Origin: Bacteroidota bacterium
GTDB taxonomy: Bacteria; Bacteroidota; Bacteroidia; 2-12-FULL-35-15
Assembly (NCBI GenBank): GCA_947479085.1
Contig: CANJYB010000005.1
Span: forward strand, 1-64,000
Direction: 5' to 3'
Length of the DNA stretch: 64,000 bases
In this document: positions 1,305 through 63,326 of the stretch, piece after piece
Layout: every line of letters starts with the position of its first letter
Numbering within the stretch: the first letter of the stretch is position 1
Position numbers and translations under genes: made by a program
Notes under the pieces: model-generated
Seen by the model: only the letters and a program-made list of their open reading frames with translations
The model's database searches: none
What the model was told of the DNA's origin: nothing

Positions 1305-1389
1305 TTTTTCTCTTACGCCCTACTTTGCTCAGGCGATTTTTATTTAGTTAATTATTTATCAAATTAGTTTTTTCATTCTTTTCAATTTA

Positions 1390-1656
1390 TCATCCATCCC
1401 CGACAACATATCATCCATTCCCTACAATATTTCATCCATCCCCGACAATATTTCATCCATTCCCGACAACATATCATCCATTCCCGACAATATATCATCC
1501 ATTCCCGACAATATTTCATCCATCCCCGACAATATATCATCCATTCCCGACAATATTTCATCCATCCCCTACAATATTTCATCCATCCCCGACAACATAT
1601 CATCCATCCCCTACAATATTTCATCCATCCCCGACAATATTTCATCCATTTCAGTC
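1390..1656. repeat. 21-bp minisatellite, 12 full copies plus a degenerate one
   Basis: Units of exactly 21 bp start at 1390, 1411, 1432 and so on to 1621, with a decayed copy at 1642. The unit is TCATCCATYCCCGACAAYAT plus one base. Variation is confined to a few positions: C/T after CCAT, CGAC versus CTAC, and the last three bases. Because 21 is divisible by three, several frames stay open. One minus-strand frame reads as a D-E-I-L-S-G-M heptad, but units carrying CTAC put a TAG stop into that frame. No plus-strand frame has an ATG upstream of the array. Probably non-coding, or the remains of a heptad-repeat coding sequence. Confidence 0.9.
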
Positions 1657-2760: not shown

Positions 2761-3729
2761 ATGAAAAAAATTATCTTCCTTTCAGTTCTGCTGAACTTAT
2801 TTCAGTTTATATCTGTTAAATCTCAAAACTTAGTTCCGAATCCCAGTTTTGAGTTTTTTACACAATGTCCAACATCTGATGGGCAAACCGACTTTGCTTT
2901 TCCGTGGTACGATCCTACTGGCGCTACATCTGATTATTTCAACGCCTGTGCGAATCCATCTTATTTAGGAGTACCAAATAATTCTGGTTTTAATTGTTAT
3001 CAACCAGCAAAAACAGGAAGTGCATACTGCGGTTTTTTCTCAATTAATAGTGGTCTCCCCAATTATAGGGAGTATATTCAAGTAGAGTTAACAGATAGTT
3101 TGATATACAATGTTTGTTATTATATTGAATTTTATTTAAGTCTGGCAAATACTTCTTCTTACGGAACAAACAATATTGGTTGTTATATATCCAATACAGC
3201 AGTTACAACTGCCCAGCCTAACATTTTAAATTATACGCCTCAAATTTTGGCTGTAGGTAATCCTGTAATAAATGATACCGTTAATTGGGTAAAAGTTTCA
3301 GGTTATTATACGGCATTTGGAGGTGAAAAATACATTACAATAGGCAATTTTAATACGAATGCAAATACAAATGTTGCAGTTAATGATACTGTTACATTTT
3401 ATCCGGCAAATGACACCAGTTCTTATTATTATGTAGATGATGTAACTTTAATAGATTGCTCACAAATAGGAATAAATGAGATAGAAGGAAATTGTAATTT
3501 TATACTCTTCCCCAACCCCGCTTCCGGTAACCTAACCATTTCTTTTGCGTATAATAACACAAAGGCAATCGTTAACATTACAGATATAACAGGGAAAATT
3601 GTTTTACAATCCGAAATCCATAATCCGAAATCCGAAATTGATTTAACAGGTTTTGCAGATGGGATGTATTTTGTACAAATAAAAACAGGTGATTTTACCG
3701 AAACAAAAAAACTAATCGTTGAGAAATAA
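2761..3729 (+). CDS. Secreted T9SS type A sorting-domain protein, 322 aa
   Basis: An N-terminal signal peptide (about residues 1-21, MKKIIFLSVLLNLFQFISV) leads into an NLVPNPSFE segment, as in two paralogues in this window (24082-25281 and 28770-29729). The body (about 22-230) is beta-rich, with a YYYVDDVTL strand near its end typical of a jelly-roll domain. The last 75 residues are a type A T9SS sorting domain: NPASGNLTISF, then IVNITDITGK, then GMYFVQIKTGDFTETKKLIV. It should therefore be exported to the periplasm by Sec and delivered to the surface or medium by T9SS. A four-copy heptanucleotide repeat lies inside the sorting domain coding sequence at 3608-3635, currently in frame. The specific function is unknown. 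Confidence 0.85.
   Translation: MKKIIFLSVLLNLFQFISVKSQNLVPNPSFEFFTQCPTSDGQTDFAFPWYDPTGATSDYFNACANPSYLGVPNNSGFNCYQPAKTGSAYCGFFSINSGLPNYREYIQVELTDSLIYNVCYYIEFYLSLANTSSYGTNNIGCYISNTAVTTAQPNILNYTPQILAVGNPVINDTVNWVKVSGYYTAFGGEKYITIGNFNTNANTNVAVNDTVTFYPANDTSSYYYVDDVTLIDCSQIGINEIEGNCNFILFPNPASGNLTISFAYNNTKAIVNITDITGKIVLQSEIHNPKSEIDLTGFADGMYFVQIKTGDFTETKKLIVEK
3608..3635. repeat. Heptanucleotide repeat in a T9SS sorting-domain coding sequence
   Basis: Four 7-bp units: AATCCGA, AATCCAT, AATCCGA, AATCCGA. They encode part of the linker just before the last beta strands of the sorting domain. A unit of 7 bp is not a multiple of three, so gain or loss of a copy would shift the frame. Confidence 0.85.
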
Positions 3730-53359: not shown

Positions 53360-53776
53360 TTATTCGCCTTTCATTTTGGCTTTCCATGTTTCAGGAATAA
53401 GAATACTTTGATTGGTCCGGTAATTAAAACAAACAATAATTGCAAGACCTTTGGCAGCTTCTACTTCTTCACCGTTCACCATTCTAACAATTGAACAATT
53501 CATATCAAAACTCTTGGAACCTATTCGTGAAACCCAGGTGTAAACAAACACTTTATCCTCCAGCAAAATGGGCTGTTTATATTCTATCTCTATTTTGGCA
53601 AGAATAACACCTTCGTTATCCCAGTCTATTTTAATGTCGTCACCGGAAAGGGCATTAAAATAATCTACCCTGGCCAGTTCGAAATAAGTAACATGGTTGG
53701 CATTGTTTACATGGCCTAAACGGTCGATGTCTTTGAAGCGAATTTGAATGGGTGTTTTTTGTTTGAATGGGTTCAT
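53360..53776 (-). CDS. Acyl-CoA thioesterase (4HBT/YbgC type), 138 aa
   Basis: Hot-dog fold thioesterase. The pattern IQIRFKDIDRLGHVNNANHVTYFELARVDYFNAL is the YbgC/4HBT N-terminus, with the catalytic Asp in FKDIDRLGHVNN. It then shows KIEIEYKQPILLEDKVFVYTWVSRIGSKSF and IVRMVNGEEVEAAKGLAIIVCF. It hydrolyses acyl-CoA or acyl-carrier thioesters. It overlaps the longer upstream form of the FG-GAP ORF but not its chosen start. No close neighbours suggest a pathway. Confidence 0.92.
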   Translation of the reverse strand: MNPFKQKTPIQIRFKDIDRLGHVNNANHVTYFELARVDYFNALSGDDIKIDWDNEGVILAKIEIEYKQPILLEDKVFVYTWVSRIGSKSFDMNCSIVRMVNGEEVEAAKGLAIIVCFNYRTNQSILIPETWKAKMKGE

Positions 53777-53847
53777 TGAGTACGGATAACAAATTAATAC
53801 GAATTTACGAATTACGAATCTTTACAAATTTACAAATAAAAAAATAG

Positions 53848-53938
53848 AACCGCAGAGAAAAGGGAGGAAAGGCAGAGAGCCGCTGAGTATATTCTCTCAG
53901 CGGCTCTCTGCGTTTTTTTCTCTGCGCCCTCTGCGGTT
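53848..53938. repeat. Large imperfect inverted repeat
   Basis: A perfect 16-bp inner stem (GCAGAGAGCCGCTGAG with its complement, 53872-53887 and 53896-53911) inside an outer stem AACCGCAGAG/CTCTGCGGTT (53848-53857 and 53929-53938). The sequence resembles the GCAGAG-rich motif in the 172-bp repeat at the window start. Confidence 0.8.
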
Positions 53939-53943
53939 AATTT

Positions 53944-54051
53944 TTACTCTTTTACAAATTTCTTTCTTATTATTTGATTGTTGTCACCCCGAATAAGGCC
54001 TACTTCAATAAAATAAATTCCTTTGTTCAGCCCGCTTACATCTAAAGTAAC
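53944..54051 (-). pseudogene. Out-of-frame T9SS sorting-domain end of the 54005 gene
   Basis: Read in the other minus-strand frame, just downstream of the heptamer array, the sequence encodes VTLDVSGLNKGIYFIEVG then LIRGDNNQIIRKKFVKE and a stop at 53944-53946. This is the missing last part of the sorting domain of the protein at 54005-55660. Loss of one 7-bp repeat copy would join it in frame. Confidence 0.8.
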
Positions 54052-55660
54052 GTCCGATGTCCGATGTCCGATGTCCGATGTCCGATGACTGCACCATCTC
54101 TCCAAGTACATTATATATATGTATGGTTTCGATTGTTGAATTGTTCCCGTACGTGCGGGATTGAATTGTTAATTGGGTAGTAGCGGGGTTGGGGGAGATG
54201 GTTATTTCAGCTTTTGATTTTAATGGTTCTGCTACTCCTGTAAATGAGCATGGAAGATTTAATTTTGCTAAATAAGCAAGTTCAACAGCATTAGAATTAA
54301 CTAAAGTATCACTACCAATTATAAATTGAGATGTATAAAAATCTCCTGATAAAAAAAGATGACAATTATTATCAATTATCATAGGGGCATCATCGTCTCC
54401 TCCTCCATTATTAACTTGCCCCCAAATAGCTGTACCGTTCGAATCGTATTCAATAAGATATGAATTATCTTCATCGGGGTTATTCATATTAAGAGAAATA
54501 GTTCCAAAATTAATAACGCCCGAATTGCCTCCCGAAACCATGAATACATTTCCATTATTGTCGGCAGCTAATCCCCAGGGTCCAAAAAACGAACAGGAGC
54601 ATTGACCTTGTCTTGTCCAAAGTAAAGTTCCAGATGTATCGTATTTATATAAAGTAGGAAAGCTTGAATTACCTGAATTAGTTATTACCCTGTCAGCAAG
54701 AAATATTTCTCCCGCGTTATTAACACTTATATAACCATCCTGATTCTGATAAGTAGCAGTACCAATACTTCTTGCCCAAATTTCTCCACCATTTTGATCA
54801 AGTTTTACTATAAAATCATCGGTATGGCCTATTTTAATTAAATTGGTGGTACCGAAATTTATTGAAGGAGAATTAAAATTACCCATAAAATAAACATTGC
54901 CCAAATTGTCTGTAGCTATGGCATCACTAATATCATTACTAATACCACCTGCTGATTTTGCCCATAGTCCATTTCCGGAAGAATCTAATTTAACTACAAA
55001 AACTTTATCTCCAAAAGTAGTGTTAGTTACTGTTATAGATCCAAAGGACAGCGATGGTGACATAAAAAATCCTGTAATAAAAATATTTCCATTTGGGTCA
55101 GTAGCTATTGCTTCCGGTGAGTCAAAGGAGCTTCCACCAAACGTTTTAACCCATAAGGTATTTCCGGATGAATTAAATTTGGCAAGAAAAATATCGGCAG
55201 TACCAGCACTTGTAAGATGAAAAGTATCAATAGTTTCATTAGTCGCAAAACCAAAACGACCTGTAACGTATATATTTCCAGCTTGGTCCGTGGCTATATA
55301 TGGATAATACCCAGAAAACCCTTTCGCCCAAAGTAAAGCACCTGCCTGATTATACTTTGCTAAGTAATTATTCAGGTGATTAAATGTATCGTGACAAACA
55401 AGAGAAGTTGTACCAAATTGAGCAGTATCAGAAAAAACACCTGCTACATATATATTATTACTCCCATCTAAAGCAATGCTCATTCCCTCTTGAATTATTT
55501 GATTACTCCCACTACCAAATGCCTGTTCCGCCCATTGCCATGTTGGAACTTGGGCACTTAAACTTATATATGCAGATACAAGAAATAAAGTGGTAATTAC
55601 CCTCTTTCTCCATTTTGTCGGGATTTTGTTTATGATTATTTTATTTATTTTACCTAGCAT
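54005..55660 (-). CDS. Beta-propeller (SBBP-type) secreted protein with sorting domain cut by frameshift, 551 aa
   Basis: Signal-peptide-like N-terminus (WRKRVITTLFLVSAYISLSAQ), then a repetitive propeller with motifs such as NIYVAGVFSDTAQFG, NIYVTGRFGFAT, NIFITGFFMSPSL and NVYFMGNFNSPSINFG, as in SBBP-repeat proteins. A sorting domain begins at ITISPNPATTQLTIQSRTYG and IYNVLGEMVQSSD. In this sequence the heptamer array shifts the frame, and the product ends RYFRCKRAEQRNLFY, without the last strands. It would then be exported by Sec but not recognised by T9SS. In the other frame the domain continues to 53944. Candidate for phase variation. Confidence 0.82.
   Translation of the reverse strand: MLGKINKIIINKIPTKWRKRVITTLFLVSAYISLSAQVPTWQWAEQAFGSGSNQIIQEGMSIALDGSNNIYVAGVFSDTAQFGTTSLVCHDTFNHLNNYLAKYNQAGALLWAKGFSGYYPYIATDQAGNIYVTGRFGFATNETIDTFHLTSAGTADIFLAKFNSSGNTLWVKTFGGSSFDSPEAIATDPNGNIFITGFFMSPSLSFGSITVTNTTFGDKVFVVKLDSSGNGLWAKSAGGISNDISDAIATDNLGNVYFMGNFNSPSINFGTTNLIKIGHTDDFIVKLDQNGGEIWARSIGTATYQNQDGYISVNNAGEIFLADRVITNSGNSSFPTLYKYDTSGTLLWTRQGQCSCSFFGPWGLAADNNGNVFMVSGGNSGVINFGTISLNMNNPDEDNSYLIEYDSNGTAIWGQVNNGGGDDDAPMIIDNNCHLFLSGDFYTSQFIIGSDTLVNSNAVELAYLAKLNLPCSFTGVAEPLKSKAEITISPNPATTQLTIQSRTYGNNSTIETIHIYNVLGEMVQSSDIGHRTSDIGRYFRCKRAEQRNLFY
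54052..54086. repeat. Five-copy heptanucleotide repeat in a sorting-domain linker
   Basis: GTCCGAT occurs five times in tandem on the plus strand. On the coding (minus) strand it gives ATCGGAC repeats. 37 bases separate the in-frame codon CAG from the first codon of the sorting-domain end, which is 1 modulo 3; one copy fewer (30) or two more (51) would restore the frame. Confidence 0.92.
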
Positions 55661-55833
55661 GTTTTCTCTTTACTTTTGTAATGCCTATAGTGTAAATAAT
55701 AATAATGTGTAAATTCTTTTCATTATTATATAAATTTATTTCTCCCACAAATCTAATCTTAATTTTACTCTCCCACCTTATCTTTCATTAAAAAATAAAA
55801 ACCACTATGGAAGGACAAATAATGCAAATATTG

Positions 55834-57139: not shown

Positions 57140-59026
57140 CTAATCCAACTCCACATACACGGAATTATTGCTCTTAAATTCAGGTACTAATTCCTTCATT
57201 TTCTTTACAATTGATTTATTATTTTGCTTTTCAAAAAGAAGTATTAATTCGGAAATAGAATTGGAAACAGTTGCGAAATCATACTCTTTTACTTTGGCAA
57301 TTAATATTTGTTTATGATGTGTTGGCAATGTGTTTTCATGGTCTGCCAAAAGTTCTTCAAATAGTTTTTCCCCGGGACGTAAACCTGTATAAATAATACG
57401 AATGTCTTTATCGAGGACTAAACCGGAAAGCTTAATCATCTTCACAGCAAGGTCGTAAATCTTTACAGATTCTCCCATATCGAAAATAAAAATCTCACCA
57501 CCTTTTCCCATTGCACCTGCTTCCAGAACCAACTGGCATGCCTCAGGAATAGTCATAAAATAACGGGTAATATCAGGGTGAGTAATGGTGATGGGACCAC
57601 CTGTTTCTATCTGCTGCCGGAAACGGGGAATGACCGAACCACTTGAACCAAGCACATTTCCAAACCGTGTAGTAATGAATCGGGTGTTTGATTTTTTATT
57701 TAAAGATTGGGTGTACATTTCGGCAATGCGTTTACTGGCCCCCATCACATTGGTGGGGTTAACAGCCTTATCAGTACTCACCATTACAAATTTCTCTACC
57801 TTATATTCAACAGATAAATCGGCAATGGTTTTTGTTCCAAGCACATTGGTTAAAACAGATTCGGATGGATTGTTCTCCATCATTGGCACGTGTTTGTATG
57901 CAGCCGAGTGAAAAACAATCTGTGGATGAAAAGTTTGGAATACATTTTCCATCCGTTCCTTATTCCTGATATCGCCCATCACCACCTCGTACCGCAGCTG
58001 ACTGTATTTATCATGCAGTTCCATTTCCATGTCATATAATGGAGATTCGGCCTGGTCGAGCAATACAATTTTTTCAGGGTTGAAACGAATTAACTGGCGA
58101 ACAATTTCGCTGCCAATGCTTCCGGCAGCACCTGTAACCAATATTACTTTGCCCGATAATTGTTTTTGAATATCCTCTTTATCGAGTTGTATGGGATCAC
58201 GCTCCAGCAATTCTTCAATCTGTACTTTTTTAATCTGCTTGAAACTTAATTCACCATTAATCCAGTTGGTAACCGGGGGAACGTTTAATACTTTGGTATT
58301 ATGGTTCAGGCAAATGTCCACAATCATTTGTTTTTTGGCAGGAGCAAGATTTTGAATGGAAATAATCAGATTGGAAACATCATGATGTTGCAATAATTCA
58401 TCCAGTTTTTCTATTCCATAAATAGTTACTCCCTCTAATTTCTTTTCCTGCTTTTTAGTATCGTCATCTATAAAGGCAAGTACTTTGTATTTAGTGCCGG
58501 CATCCCTGTCCAGTGTTCGCTTGGTTATTATTCCCGATTCTCCTGCTCCGAAAATGATAACGCTGCGTTTATCTTTATTAGGGTTGGTCAGTTCGAGGTA
58601 GAGCGCTTTGAACATTACCCGTAAACTTATCATCAAAAAAGTGGTGGCCATGTAATCAATGATGATGATTGAAAACGGGATAGGAAATTTTTTGTTGATG
58701 AAATAATAAGAAATAAAATCGATGAGACAGAAAACGACACTGCCAATGGAAATGACAATAAAAATACGTTGAGCATCTTTTGAACTCGTATATTTTACTA
58801 TGCCCTGATAGGTTTTTGAAAAGTAAAAACTAAAAGCACGAATAAATAAGATTATCCCGAAAACGAGCGGAAAAGCACCTATTTCGTTTGGAGGAATAGA
58901 GAAATTAAAACGAACCAGGTAAGCAAGAACTATGGAAAACAAACAAATGCCAAGGTCGATGAAAAAGATAATCCATCTCGGCATATTGCGTTGAAAAAGA
59001 CAGTCGATAGGTTTCATTGCGTTCAA
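57140..59026 (-). CDS. Nucleotide-sugar 4,6-dehydratase, membrane type (CapD/WbpM/FlaA1-like), 628 aa
   Basis: Four N-terminal transmembrane helices (residues about 15-130), then a first nucleotide-binding domain with VIIFGAGESGIITKRTL, and a C-terminal SDR domain with GKVILVTGAAGSIGSEIVRQL, FHSAAYKHVPMMENNPSE, and the catalytic STDKAVNPTNVMGASKRIAE segment. GDIRNKERM and TRFGNVLGSSGSVIPRF match this group. It makes a 4-keto-6-deoxy sugar nucleotide from UDP-GlcNAc or a related donor, for surface polysaccharide. It is divergent from a glycosyltransferase gene. Confidence 0.93.
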   Translation of the reverse strand: MNAMKPIDCLFQRNMPRWIIFFIDLGICLFSIVLAYLVRFNFSIPPNEIGAFPLVFGIILFIRAFSFYFSKTYQGIVKYTSSKDAQRIFIVISIGSVVFCLIDFISYYFINKKFPIPFSIIIIDYMATTFLMISLRVMFKALYLELTNPNKDKRSVIIFGAGESGIITKRTLDRDAGTKYKVLAFIDDDTKKQEKKLEGVTIYGIEKLDELLQHHDVSNLIISIQNLAPAKKQMIVDICLNHNTKVLNVPPVTNWINGELSFKQIKKVQIEELLERDPIQLDKEDIQKQLSGKVILVTGAAGSIGSEIVRQLIRFNPEKIVLLDQAESPLYDMEMELHDKYSQLRYEVVMGDIRNKERMENVFQTFHPQIVFHSAAYKHVPMMENNPSESVLTNVLGTKTIADLSVEYKVEKFVMVSTDKAVNPTNVMGASKRIAEMYTQSLNKKSNTRFITTRFGNVLGSSGSVIPRFRQQIETGGPITITHPDITRYFMTIPEACQLVLEAGAMGKGGEIFIFDMGESVKIYDLAVKMIKLSGLVLDKDIRIIYTGLRPGEKLFEELLADHENTLPTHHKQILIAKVKEYDFATVSNSISELILLFEKQNNKSIVKKMKELVPEFKSNNSVYVELD

Positions 59027-59041
59027 AGATATAAAAATTGA

Positions 59042-59070
59042 TTGCTACTCGCACTTACTTTTTATCTTTG
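59042..59070 (+). promoter_or_regulatory. Promoter of the glycosyltransferase gene
   Basis: TTG at 59042-59044 and TATCTTTG at 59063-59070, 18 bases apart, agree with the Bacteroidota -33/-7 pattern. The ATG is at 59086. Confidence 0.65.
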
Positions 59071-59085
59071 CACGCAATTAAATAT

Positions 59086-60171
59086 ATGCCCAGAATTTTA
59101 TTCATAGCTGCTCACCGTCCTAACCGCTCCCCAAGTCAGCGTTACCGCTTCGAACAATATTTTAGCTTTTTAAGAGAAAATGGTTTTGAATGCGATCTTT
59201 CATTTATTTTAAATGAAAGGGACGAAAAACTGTTCTATGGCCCGGGCAATATACCTGAGAAATTTTTCATTACCCTGAAAAGCGCTAAAATAAGGCTGAA
59301 GGACGTGCGACTTGCCAATAGTTATGATATTGTTTTTGTACAAAGGGAAGCATTTATGACCGGTTCTTCTTTTTTCGAAAAGAGATTCAGCAAATCAAAA
59401 GCAAAACTTGTTTTCGACTTTGATGATTCCATCTGGCTGCTGGATACTTCGGCTGCCAATAAAATATGGCAATGGATGAAGAGTGCAAAAAAAACCGGTA
59501 AAATAATTTCACTCTCTCACCTTGTATTGGCGGGTAACCAATACCTGGCCGATTATGCAAGACAGTTTAATAATAATGTAAAAGTAATACCTACTACTAT
59601 TGATACCGCTATTTTTAAAAGAGAAAAGGAATACCAGGACAATGAAAGGATTTGTATTGGCTGGAGTGGCAGCCATACTACGATAAAACATTTTGAAGCA
59701 GCTTTGCCTTATCTGAAAAAGATAAAACAAAAGTATGGTGAAAAGGTTTATTTTAAAGTAATGGGTGATGCAGAGTATGAAAATAAGGAATTAGGTATAC
59801 AAGGTATTCCCTGGACTAGCGAAACAGAAGTACCTGTTCTTTCGGGGTTTGATATTGGTATTATGCCCTTGCCGGACGACCAGTGGGTAAAAGGGAAATG
59901 CGGATTAAAAGGGTTGTCTTATATGTCACTGGAAGTACCTACTATTATGTCAGGAGTTGGAGTAAATACGGAGATAATTAACGATGGTGTAAATGGCTTT
60001 ATAGCCAATACTGACGAAGAATGGGTGGATAAAATTTCCCGCTTAATTGATTCGTTCGAATTAAGAAAGAAACTGGGGCAAAATGCAAGGAAAACAGTGG
60101 AGGTTTCGTATTCTCTTGAATCACAAAAAATGAATTACCTGAATTACCTGAAAGAATTATTGGCAAGATAG
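59086..60171 (+). CDS. Glycosyltransferase family 4-like protein, 361 aa
   Basis: Two Rossmann-like halves. The first has MPRILFIAAHRPNRSPSQRYRFEQYFSFLRENGFECDLSF, then LVFDFDDSIWLLDTSAANKIWQWMKSAKK; the second has VKVIPTTIDTAIFKREKEYQDNERICIGWSGSHTTIKHFEAAL and FDIGIMPLPDDQWVKGKCGLKGLSYMSLEVPTIMSGVGVNTEIINDGVNGF, the donor-binding region of GT4-type enzymes. I start it at the ATG 59086, after the promoter; a start at 59038 lies before the -7 box. With the dehydratase next door it probably acts in surface polysaccharide synthesis. Substrate unknown. Confidence 0.9.
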   Translation: MPRILFIAAHRPNRSPSQRYRFEQYFSFLRENGFECDLSFILNERDEKLFYGPGNIPEKFFITLKSAKIRLKDVRLANSYDIVFVQREAFMTGSSFFEKRFSKSKAKLVFDFDDSIWLLDTSAANKIWQWMKSAKKTGKIISLSHLVLAGNQYLADYARQFNNNVKVIPTTIDTAIFKREKEYQDNERICIGWSGSHTTIKHFEAALPYLKKIKQKYGEKVYFKVMGDAEYENKELGIQGIPWTSETEVPVLSGFDIGIMPLPDDQWVKGKCGLKGLSYMSLEVPTIMSGVGVNTEIINDGVNGFIANTDEEWVDKISRLIDSFELRKKLGQNARKTVEVSYSLESQKMNYLNYLKELLAR

Positions 60172-60224
60172 GTTGTTTCATTCATCAGATATAATTTTTC
60201 GAAAGGGATAAATTTTTAATTTAT

Positions 60225-60232
60225 TAACTTTG
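60225..60232 (+). promoter_or_regulatory. -7 box for the 49-residue ORF
   Basis: TAACTTTG, 23 bases before the ATG at 60255. No matching -33 element is evident. Confidence 0.4.
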
Positions 60233-60254
60233 TATAAATTAATGCAAATAAATT

Positions 60255-60404
60255 ATGACTAGTACAAAACAGGAATTAACTCCCTTTAGCCTGAAAGTTT
60301 TTTATGCAAGGAATGCCCAATCGCAAAAAGAAATAAAAGGCGGTAAACTGATTTCCAATAAGGATGTGAAAAAGCGTTTTCTTCAAAAAAATAATAGTTA
60401 TTAA
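60255..60404 (+). CDS. Small hypothetical protein, 49 aa
   Basis: ATG at 60255, stop at 60402-60404. The translation begins MTSTKQELTPFSLKVFYARN and ends NKDVKKRFLQKNNSY. Balanced amino-acid composition, a -7 box before it and a position between two genes support a real small gene. It is not a known family to me. It lies 94 bases upstream of gcvT. Confidence 0.55.
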   Translation: MTSTKQELTPFSLKVFYARNAQSQKEIKGGKLISNKDVKKRFLQKNNSY

Positions 60405-60497
60405 GTATTAAACCACATTTGCCTGACCAAACAAAAAAATCTAATTCTCAAATCTATATTTATCTTTACAAAAAAATAAAAAACAAAAAAATAAAAA

Positions 60498-61601
60498 ATG
60501 GAATCAACAGCAACAGAATTAAAGAATGTAGCACTTGGAGAAAAACACATTTCACTTGGGGCTAAAATGGTACCTTTTGCAGGATACTTAATGCCCGTAT
60601 CGTATAGCGGACTGAATGACGAACATGCTACGGTAAGAAATGCAGTAGGAGTATTTGATGTAAGCCACATGGGCGAATTTATTTTAAAAGGAGAAAACGC
60701 ATTGGATTTAATTCAGCGTGTTACCTCGAACGATGCAGCTGTTTTAATGGATGGTAAAGTACAGTATTCCTGTTTGCCTAATGATAAAGGAGGAATAGTG
60801 GATGATTTGCTGGTGTATCGAATTGACGAAAAAACATATATGCTGGTGGTAAATGCTTCCAACATTGAAAAAGACTGGAACTGGATTCAGAAGCACAATA
60901 CTAAAAATATAGAGATGCATAATATTTCAGACCAGACATCTTTACTTGCAGTGCAGGGACCGAAAGCAATTTTGGCGCTTCAGAAATTAACCGATATTAA
61001 TCTTTCAGACATTCCTTATTATACTTTCAAAAAAGGTAAATTTAATGGGGTGGATAATGTGGTTGTTTCTAATACGGGATATACCGGTGCAGGAGGATTT
61101 GAAATTTATTTTGAAAATGAATATGCTGATAAAATGTGGAACGCCATATTTGAAGCAGGGGCAGAATTTGGCATTAAACCTATTGGTCTTGGAGCCCGCG
61201 ATACATTGCGCCTCGAAATGGGTTTTTGTCTTTATGGAAACGATATTGACGATACCACTTCACCCATTGAAGCCGGGTTGGGATGGATAACTAAGTTTAC
61301 AAAAGACTTTACCAACAAGGCAGCCTTATTGGAACAAAAAGAAAAAGGAGTTACAAAAAAACTAGTTGGTTTCGAAATGATAGACCGTGGTATTCCGCGT
61401 CACGATTACCCTATAGCTGATGCATCAGGAGCAGTAATCGGGAAGGTAACTTCCGGAACTCAATCACCAACCATGAACAAAGCCATCGGGATGGGATATG
61501 TGCCAACCGCTTTTTCCAAGGCAGATTCTGAAATATTTATCATCATCAGGGATAAAGCTATTAAAGCAAAAGTGGTTAAAATTCCTTTTTTAAAAGCATA
61601 A
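60498..61601 (+). CDS. gcvT: Glycine cleavage system T protein (aminomethyltransferase), 367 aa
   Basis: GcvT transfers the aminomethyl group of glycine from lipoyl-H to tetrahydrofolate, releasing ammonia. Family signatures: [40 protein letters not shown] at the N-terminus, [21 protein letters not shown] in the middle, [15 protein letters not shown], and [22 protein letters not shown] before the C-terminal domain with [17 protein letters not shown] and [17 protein letters not shown]. Length is normal. comB follows after 11 bases on the same strand. The other gcv genes are not in the window. Confidence 0.97.
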
Positions 61602-61612
61602 TAAAATAATAG

Positions 61613-62335
61613 ATGCCAAAGAAGTTAACCGTTGATGTTTGTTTTTCACCCTTCCTGTATCCTATGTATCATAGGCCCGACAGCATAGTGGTGGTAATTG
61701 ATATTCTTCGTGCTACTTCGGCCATGTGTACCGCTTTTGAGTTTGGTGTAGATAAAATGATTCCTGTTGCCACGCTGGAAGAGGCCACAGAATATAAAAA
61801 GCAGGGTTTCCTGGTAGGTGCTGAGCGAAACGGAATTGCCATTGAAGGATTTGATTTTGGTAATTCTCCTTATTCATATCAAACAGAACTGATAAAAGGC
61901 AAAACAGTAGTAATATCTACTACCAACGGAACGCAGGCCATAGAGGCCGCCCGACAGGCTTATCAGGTAGTGATAGGTGCATTTACCAATATTACTTCTT
62001 TATGTAACTGGCTGAAAACTCAAAACAGGGATGTATTGCTTCTTTGCTCAGGATGGAAAAATAAGTTCAACCTGGAGGATACCTTATTTGCAGGAGCCGT
62101 GTCGGATATACTACTTGCTGACCATGCACAGTTCCGTTCGGGAGACGGTGCCCTGGCTGCAAGTTATTTATACACTTCTGCCCAAAAAAATCCTTACCGG
62201 TACCTGCGTAATTCTTCACATACCGAACGCCTTTCGCAGATGGGGCTAAAGCATGATATCAAGTATTGTTTAACGTTTGATCAAACGAATATTATACCAG
62301 TGCTGGATGGAAAATATTTAGTACCGCTGACCTGA
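61613..62335 (+). CDS. comB: 2-phosphosulfolactate phosphatase (ComB family), 240 aa
   Basis: Matches ComB: VVVIDILRATSAMCTAFEFG with the conserved Arg/Thr segment, VGAERNGIAIEGFDFGNSPYSYQ, VVISTTNGTQAIEAA, and LLLCSGWKNKFNLEDTLFAGAVSDIL. In archaea the enzyme makes sulfolactate on the way to coenzyme M; in bacteria the role is often unclear and may be a general phosphatase or part of sulfonate metabolism. It is 11 bases after gcvT and 5 bases before the zinc phospholipase-like gene, so all three may form one transcript. Confidence 0.92.
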   Translation: MPKKLTVDVCFSPFLYPMYHRPDSIVVVIDILRATSAMCTAFEFGVDKMIPVATLEEATEYKKQGFLVGAERNGIAIEGFDFGNSPYSYQTELIKGKTVVISTTNGTQAIEAARQAYQVVIGAFTNITSLCNWLKTQNRDVLLLCSGWKNKFNLEDTLFAGAVSDILLADHAQFRSGDGALAASYLYTSAQKNPYRYLRNSSHTERLSQMGLKHDIKYCLTFDQTNIIPVLDGKYLVPLT

Positions 62336-62339
62336 GAAA

Positions 62340-63326
62340 ATGAAAAAATTCTTCTTCATACTTTTGCTCGTAGCTGGTATCCTGTTTATTATTCCTCATA
62401 ATAATACGGCTTATTCCTGGGGATTTTTTGCGCATAAAAAAATTAACCGAATGGCTGTATTCACTTTGCCCGAAGGGATGATTGGTTTTTATAAGCAGCA
62501 TATCGATTACATTACCGAACATGCTGTGGACCCCGACAAAAGAAGGTATGCCAATGCCGATGAAGCGCCAAGACATTTTATCGACATGGATAGGTATGGC
62601 AAATACGCATTCGATTCTGTTCCGCATAAATGGAACGATGCCGTAAAAAAATACAGCGAGGACACTTTAAATTCAAACGGAATAGTTCCCTGGTGGATTG
62701 ATAAAATGATGTACCGCCTCACCCAGGCTTTCCGTGCCGAAAACATGGACCTGATTTTACATTACTCTGCCGATCTGGGCCATTACATTGGCGATTCGCA
62801 TGTTCCGCTCCATACCACTTCCAATTATAACGGACTTGCAACTAACCAAAAAGGCATACATGGTTTTTGGGAATCTCGCATTCCTGAGCTTAAATCCGAA
62901 GGTTACGATTATTGGGTGGGTAAGGCAAAGTATATTGATAAACCAATTGAAAAAGCCTGGAACACTGTAAAAGCAAGCAATGCAGCCCTCGATTCGGTGC
63001 TCCTGTTCGAAGCCGATTTGAATTCCCGTTTTCCGCAGGATAAAAAATACAGCTTCGAAAATCGCGGAGCCAGCCTAATGAAAGTATATTCGGTGGAATA
63101 TACCAATGCTTATAATACTATGCTGAATGGTATGGTCGAACGTAGGATGCGTGCTGCCATCATTACCGTGGGCAGTATGTGGTACACCGCCTGGGTAAAT
63201 GCCGGCAAACCCAACTTAGACAAGTTTGACAACAAAGAAATTTCCGATTCCTTAAAACAAGCCGATAAGGCACTTGAGCAGCTGAAAAGCAACCCCAACA
63301 TAGAAGTAAAAGGCCATAACGATTAA
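62340..63326 (+). CDS. Zinc-dependent phospholipase C / S1-P1 nuclease-like protein, 328 aa
   Basis: Signal peptide-like N-terminus (KFFFILLLVAGILFIIPHNNTAYS), then the metal-binding beginning WGFFAHKKINRMAVF, in which the first Trp and His are typical zinc ligands of this fold. Further His/Asp ligands: ILHYSADLGHYIGDSHVPLHTTSNYNG. The fold includes both PLC and nuclease P1 types. In Bacteroidota this group is usually annotated as zinc-dependent phospholipase C-like; substrate not proven. It is probably exported to the periplasm. It starts 5 bases after comB. Confidence 0.85.
   Translation: MKKFFFILLLVAGILFIIPHNNTAYSWGFFAHKKINRMAVFTLPEGMIGFYKQHIDYITEHAVDPDKRRYANADEAPRHFIDMDRYGKYAFDSVPHKWNDAVKKYSEDTLNSNGIVPWWIDKMMYRLTQAFRAENMDLILHYSADLGHYIGDSHVPLHTTSNYNGLATNQKGIHGFWESRIPELKSEGYDYWVGKAKYIDKPIEKAWNTVKASNAALDSVLLFEADLNSRFPQDKKYSFENRGASLMKVYSVEYTNAYNTMLNGMVERRMRAAIITVGSMWYTAWVNAGKPNLDKFDNKEISDSLKQADKALEQLKSNPNIEVKGHND

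Follow-up and report, generated by a model that had tools for sequence, protein, structure and literature searches.

The locus described here raises the question of whether a seven-base tandem repeat within the gene for a T9SS cargo protein governs, through its copy number, the delivery of that protein to the cell surface, or whether the gene has lost its export signal incidentally. It lies in a stretch of 64,000 nucleotides from a Bacteroidota bacterium (contig CANJYB010000005.1), the whole of which is referred to as the window; the features concerned are collected in Table 1. A domain profile search assigns the propeller of the 551-aa ORF to the SBBP type (PF06739, 1.8e-15). At its N-terminus a hydrophobic stretch of approximately residues 19-36, ending in 'SAQ', is found behind an unusual 18-residue extension. 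Ahead of the gene start, where the relatives have a start codon, a 12-codon ORF (MKRIYTLLLFTL, stop) lies in the region 55661-55735 and is perhaps the relic of an older signal peptide. Taken alone, the 551-aa ORF reaches 26.2 bits against PF18962 (Por_Secre_tail), below the cut-off of 27, and a complete in-frame C-terminal sorting domain (CTD) is missing from it. The remainder of the domain is encoded in another frame as a peptide of 35 aa, closed by a stop codon at 53946-53944, and when the peptide is joined over both halves it covers positions 1-72 of TIGR04183 with 41 bits, where the cut-off is 23. The orthologues in two related genomes, G015 and G004, have the complete domain in frame (51 bits). 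The window's genome encodes the T9SS translocon (SprA_N, 1e-166) as well as other cargo, with at least 150 CTD matches over the cut-off.

Table 1. Positions of the split sorting-domain gene, its neighbours and a second sorting-domain array in the window.
Feature	Position	Strand	Remarks
AATCCGA array	3608..3638	(+)	4.4 copies, imperfect; at the same loop, in a sorting domain that is intact and in frame (3505-3720)
4HBT thioesterase gene, downstream	53360..53776	(-)	anchor of the orthologous locus
Sorting domain, second half, out of frame	53944..54051	(-)	VTLDVSGLNKGIYFIEV...KE; PF18962 positions 47-73
Propeller ORF	54005..55660	(-)	551 aa; signal-peptide-like N-terminus, SBBP beta-propeller, half sorting domain, nonsense tail
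Heptamer array	54052..54087	(-)	period 7, 5.1 copies, 100% matches; GTCCGAT, coding strand ATCGGAC
Sorting domain, first half, ORF frame	54077..54199	(-)	PF18962 positions 1-41
Upstream leader	55735..55805	(-)	91-92% to G015 and G004; followed there by a DUF285 passenger
Polysaccharide-biosynthesis gene, upstream	57140..59026	(-)	second anchor

The array between the two halves is 36 bp long and codes for the variable loop that follows the conserved 'NVLGEMV' motif of the type A sorting domain. All three frames are open across it, and a frame table shows that the end of the CTD is kept at four and seven copies and lost at two, three, five, six, eight and nine. It is a tandem unit of non-triplet length within a gene, the copy number of which decides the frame, as expected of SSR-mediated phase variation. 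An earlier note on this DNA had described five GTCCGAT copies, a propeller gene with the first half of a sorting domain, the missing end in the other frame up to the stop at 53944-53946, and restoration of the frame by the loss of one copy or the gain of two; the repeat and domain searches and the frame table agree with all of these. Throughout 0.85 Mb of the window's genome, period-7 runs of at least 12 exact matches number 11, compared to one in a Markov shuffle, and no perfect period-7 array in the sample is longer than the present one. The window's genome has only two loci with a 21-nt motif of three ATCGGAC copies, and none of the 246 other genomes searched in the class has it. A conserved heptamer family was rejected on this ground, as the period alone is shared, and a recombination junction at the array is unsupported, the identity pattern to the relatives being alike in both CTD halves.

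Orthologous alleles were found with a frame-blind DNA pattern (two ATCSGAN-type heptamers followed by GIYF codons), which retrieved near-identical CTDs in G005 and G015, while G004 was added by a DNA search across the genus. The three contigs (JANYDQ010000373.1, CANIQT010000001.1 and CAIYIS010000045.1 for G005, G015 and G004, respectively) belong to MAGs of uncultured Bacteroidetes. The same CTD is intact and in frame in all three, each with a heptamer array of 3.9 copies, and the in-frame domain of G015 reads '...NVLGEMVQSSDIGHRTSVALDVSGLNKGIYFIEA...'. Compared to these, the window allele is longer by 10 nt, equal to one heptamer and one codon; the extra in-frame codon adjoins the array, and further substitutions distinguish the window allele from its relatives. 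Copy number across the orthologous alleles is thus five in the window and about four in three other species, with three of the four alleles in frame. Internal substitutions interrupt the arrays of G004 and G005, while that of G015 is perfect. Given the in-frame four-copy orthologues and the longer window allele, the 'on' state occurs naturally, and what the window represents is an apparently recent 'off' state. At the DNA level, G015 and G004 share 97% identity in the second CTD half, and the window shares 94% with either of them, whereas the adjacent thioesterase gene shows 72-85% in the same comparison; this difference suggests that CTD DNA has been exchanged or homogenised between lineages. 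The window-specific changes in the second half, three nonsynonymous and one synonymous over 36 codons (too few for dN/dS), give a hint of relaxed constraint, although they are too few to weigh.

The surroundings of the gene indicate what kind of locus is affected. Positions 53371-54196, 55735-55805 and 57141-62990 of the window are collinear with one 11-kb region of G015 (80-98% identity by segment), and the corresponding stretches of G004 likewise match the window. The passenger between leader and CTD differs, being DUF285 in the relatives (PF03382, 7e-98 in G015 and 2e-121 in G004) versus the SBBP propeller in the window. The passenger has therefore probably been replaced in the window's lineage, as judged from these alignments, with leader and CTD retained. 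A close passenger orthologue by which the lesion could be dated was not found, the best matches being 41% within the genome and 38% at full length in G005. For most of the remaining genus members, the polysaccharide gene abuts the thioesterase gene, with no sorting-domain gene between them. As most of the genus lacks a CTD gene at the site, the cargo gene is, by gene content, accessory and belongs to a small clade, and a null allele of such a gene would need no special explanation. Directly past the sorting domain, a long near-perfect inverted repeat at 53848-53938 (AACCGCAGAG...CTCTGCGGTT), which is also present in G015 and absent in G004, looks like a palindromic element of the dispersed kind; a further heptamer array comes after it, at 53798-53837.

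Heptamer arrays in sorting domains are not confined to this gene. In stretches sampled from five genomes (2.2 Mb together, of which 1.34 Mb come from the window's genome and 0.87 Mb from relatives), searched with a CTD model built from domains of the window's own genome, a period-7 array with a score of at least 9 is found in 20 of 189 intact CTDs, compared to seven array matches for the other eight periods (4-12) pooled. Two loops, one that follows the PNP motif and one behind the 'GE.V' strand, account for nearly all of the CTD arrays. The repeat units of the arrays vary (AATCCGA, AATCTGA, AATTACG, AACAACT, GTCATTT), and one of the arrays is that at 3608-3638 of the window. All 20 arrays in intact CTDs are in frame and the array at 54052-54087 is the sole one out of frame, giving 20 of 21; were frame irrelevant, at least 20 of 21 would be in frame with p ~4e-9, a value to be read with orthologues and paralogues not being independent counts. 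The sole other split CTD in the sample, at 18583-18790 of L090, was rejected as a second case, being a degenerate paralogue lacking an array, and the remaining partial matches with a C-terminal part only are relics that likewise lack arrays. Arrays of the ATCGGAC type also occur in intergenic DNA and, in frame, in PriA (TIGR00595, 7e-178), an RmlD-like reductase (6e-59), a SpoIIE-domain protein and one unassigned protein. Heptamer arrays in frame lie in loops of the PriA, RmlD-like and SpoIIE-domain proteins (L152 6012-8564, L148 7770-8714 and L153 6852-8960). The pattern typical of SSR-mediated phase variation, though not strictly defining for it, in which arrays are concentrated at switchable surface genes and are often out of frame, is not the one seen here. 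Because such arrays are present in PriA, RmlD-like and SpoIIE-domain proteins and between genes, and because nearly all are in frame, the array by its distribution is a generic, selection-filtered repeat and no device specific to surface genes. Many degenerate 21-bp tandem minisatellites, differing in sequence from array to array, were also noted (window 1388-1649, L066 1772-1972, L089 13880-14140, L094 694-1733 and L102 9739-9952), and exact period-21 runs of at least 12 bases number 111 in 0.85 Mb, against none in a shuffle.

Taken together, and as far as one consensus sequence can tell, the window allele is probably an incidental CTD-null 'off' form of an accessory surface cargo gene, produced by slippage in a generic coding heptamer, with no evolved switch involved. 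The ancestral state at the locus would have been about four copies, in frame, and a further unit was then probably gained by replication slippage in the lineage of the window. On such an allele the ribosome would exit the CTD frame and the last 35 residues would be missing. Sec export of the protein should go on if its N-terminus still works, while the truncated protein should escape T9SS recognition and remain in the periplasm. Recognition by the T9SS fails on the loss of even two to four C-terminal residues: P. gingivalis RgpB lacking its two C-terminal residues is retained in the periplasm, and the export signal of HBP35 lies within the last 22 residues (PMC11285876, PMC4804311). By analogy, the loss of 35 C-terminal residues should block T9SS export here. 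As the array is perfect, the null allele would be revertible in principle. What counts against an incidental origin is that the array is perfect and that the out-of-frame half is stop-free and 94% identical to G015, which implies either that the lesion is recent or that some of the population continues to translate this half. Translation in a subpopulation is something that a live switch would also predict.

Such a switch, in which slippage toggles the sorting domain on at four or seven copies and off otherwise, so that a subpopulation displays the propeller, appears rather unlikely. It would account for the presence of both states among homologous alleles, and is consistent with a repeat that is perfect and leaves each of the three frames open, with an out-of-frame domain half that is still intact and with a protein of surface type; there is also the precedent of neuO in E. 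coli K1, which is switched by heptanucleotide slippage (PMC13001214). However, the copies are only five, the ancestral count of four is held in three relatives, and two of their arrays are broken by substitutions. Of 21 CTD heptamer arrays, 20 keep the frame, as opposed to an out-of-frame share of 65.6% among neuO genomes (PMC13001214); PriA and other housekeeping genes contain arrays of the same type, and the loss of an accessory gene is tolerable. The earlier note had held that copy number toggles surface delivery, and had proposed that the same locus be compared in relatives. That comparison yields the four-copy in-frame form in G015, G004 and G005; the part of the claim by which array length sets the completeness of the domain stands, while reversible toggling finds no support, four copies being seen in all the relatives and the arrays being generic. 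The case for a dedicated switch is weakened by the relatives and by the genus-wide arrays.

A wider reading would regard the heptamer arrays of sorting domains as genus-wide contingency loci for cargo destination, and the present locus as a plug-in site at which leader and sorting domain stay, passengers are exchanged and delivery depends on repeat length. One unit gained or lost would then cut off the signal for surface delivery and spare the passenger. We consider this unlikely. An assembly or sequencing error, with a real array of four copies and an intact gene, is quite improbable. The window does belong to a draft genome of 50 contigs and the three closest loci, all from MAGs, carry four-copy in-frame alleles, but an array of 36 bp is shorter than a short read, so that its copy number should be resolved, and the extra codon and other substitutions show that the window allele is no miscopied allele of a relative. 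Programmed +1 frameshifting or transcript slippage that joins the halves, so that the complete protein is normally made, is highly improbable: both frames overlap over the array and a shift at any point there would join them, but direct reading of the overlap reveals neither a long homopolymer run nor a known shift site, and the orthologues encode the domain in a single frame, a conserved recoding signal being neither needed nor seen.

If the array does slip in both directions, cells would alter the destination of a protein rather than its expression, through loss of the export tag alone. A literature search joining T9SS, phase variation and Bacteroidota found no paper, and the papers searched contained no case of T9SS export-tag switching. 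Even if no switching takes place, as under the favoured incidental origin, a recurrent class of period-7 repeats persists within T9SS sorting domains, in two of their loops, and the passenger of an orthologous cargo locus has been replaced with leader and sorting domain kept; both the repeat class and the passenger swap bear on the diversification of Bacteroidota surface proteins.

Three known systems offer comparisons. Both halves in the window match the T9SS type A domain (PF18962, TIGR04183) and the in-frame orthologues pass the curated cut-off, but unlike a standard type A domain the window allele is split and neither half passes the cut-off alone. Dispersed heptamer tandem arrays are likewise known in Bacteroidetes among the long SSRs and heptamer direct repeats (TAACTGA) reported for Bacteroidetes, Cyanobacteria and Beggiatoaceae (PMC4679880), and heptanucleotides are, according to a survey as cited there, the most abundant repeat class in most surveyed genomes. 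The TAACTGA repeats are mostly intergenic and of one sequence (PMC4679880), whereas here there are many heptamers, which recur in the loops of T9SS sorting domains. A parallel in form is neuO of E. coli K1 (phage CUS-3; AAGACTC), in which a perfect coding heptanucleotide array likewise determines, by copies modulo 3, whether the full protein is made (PMC13001214). Its arrays are located 5' and comprise 3-53 copies, and 65.6% of genomes have them out of frame (PMC13001214), while the window locus, as known from sequence, carries its array 3', with 4-5 copies, and three of its four orthologous alleles are in frame.
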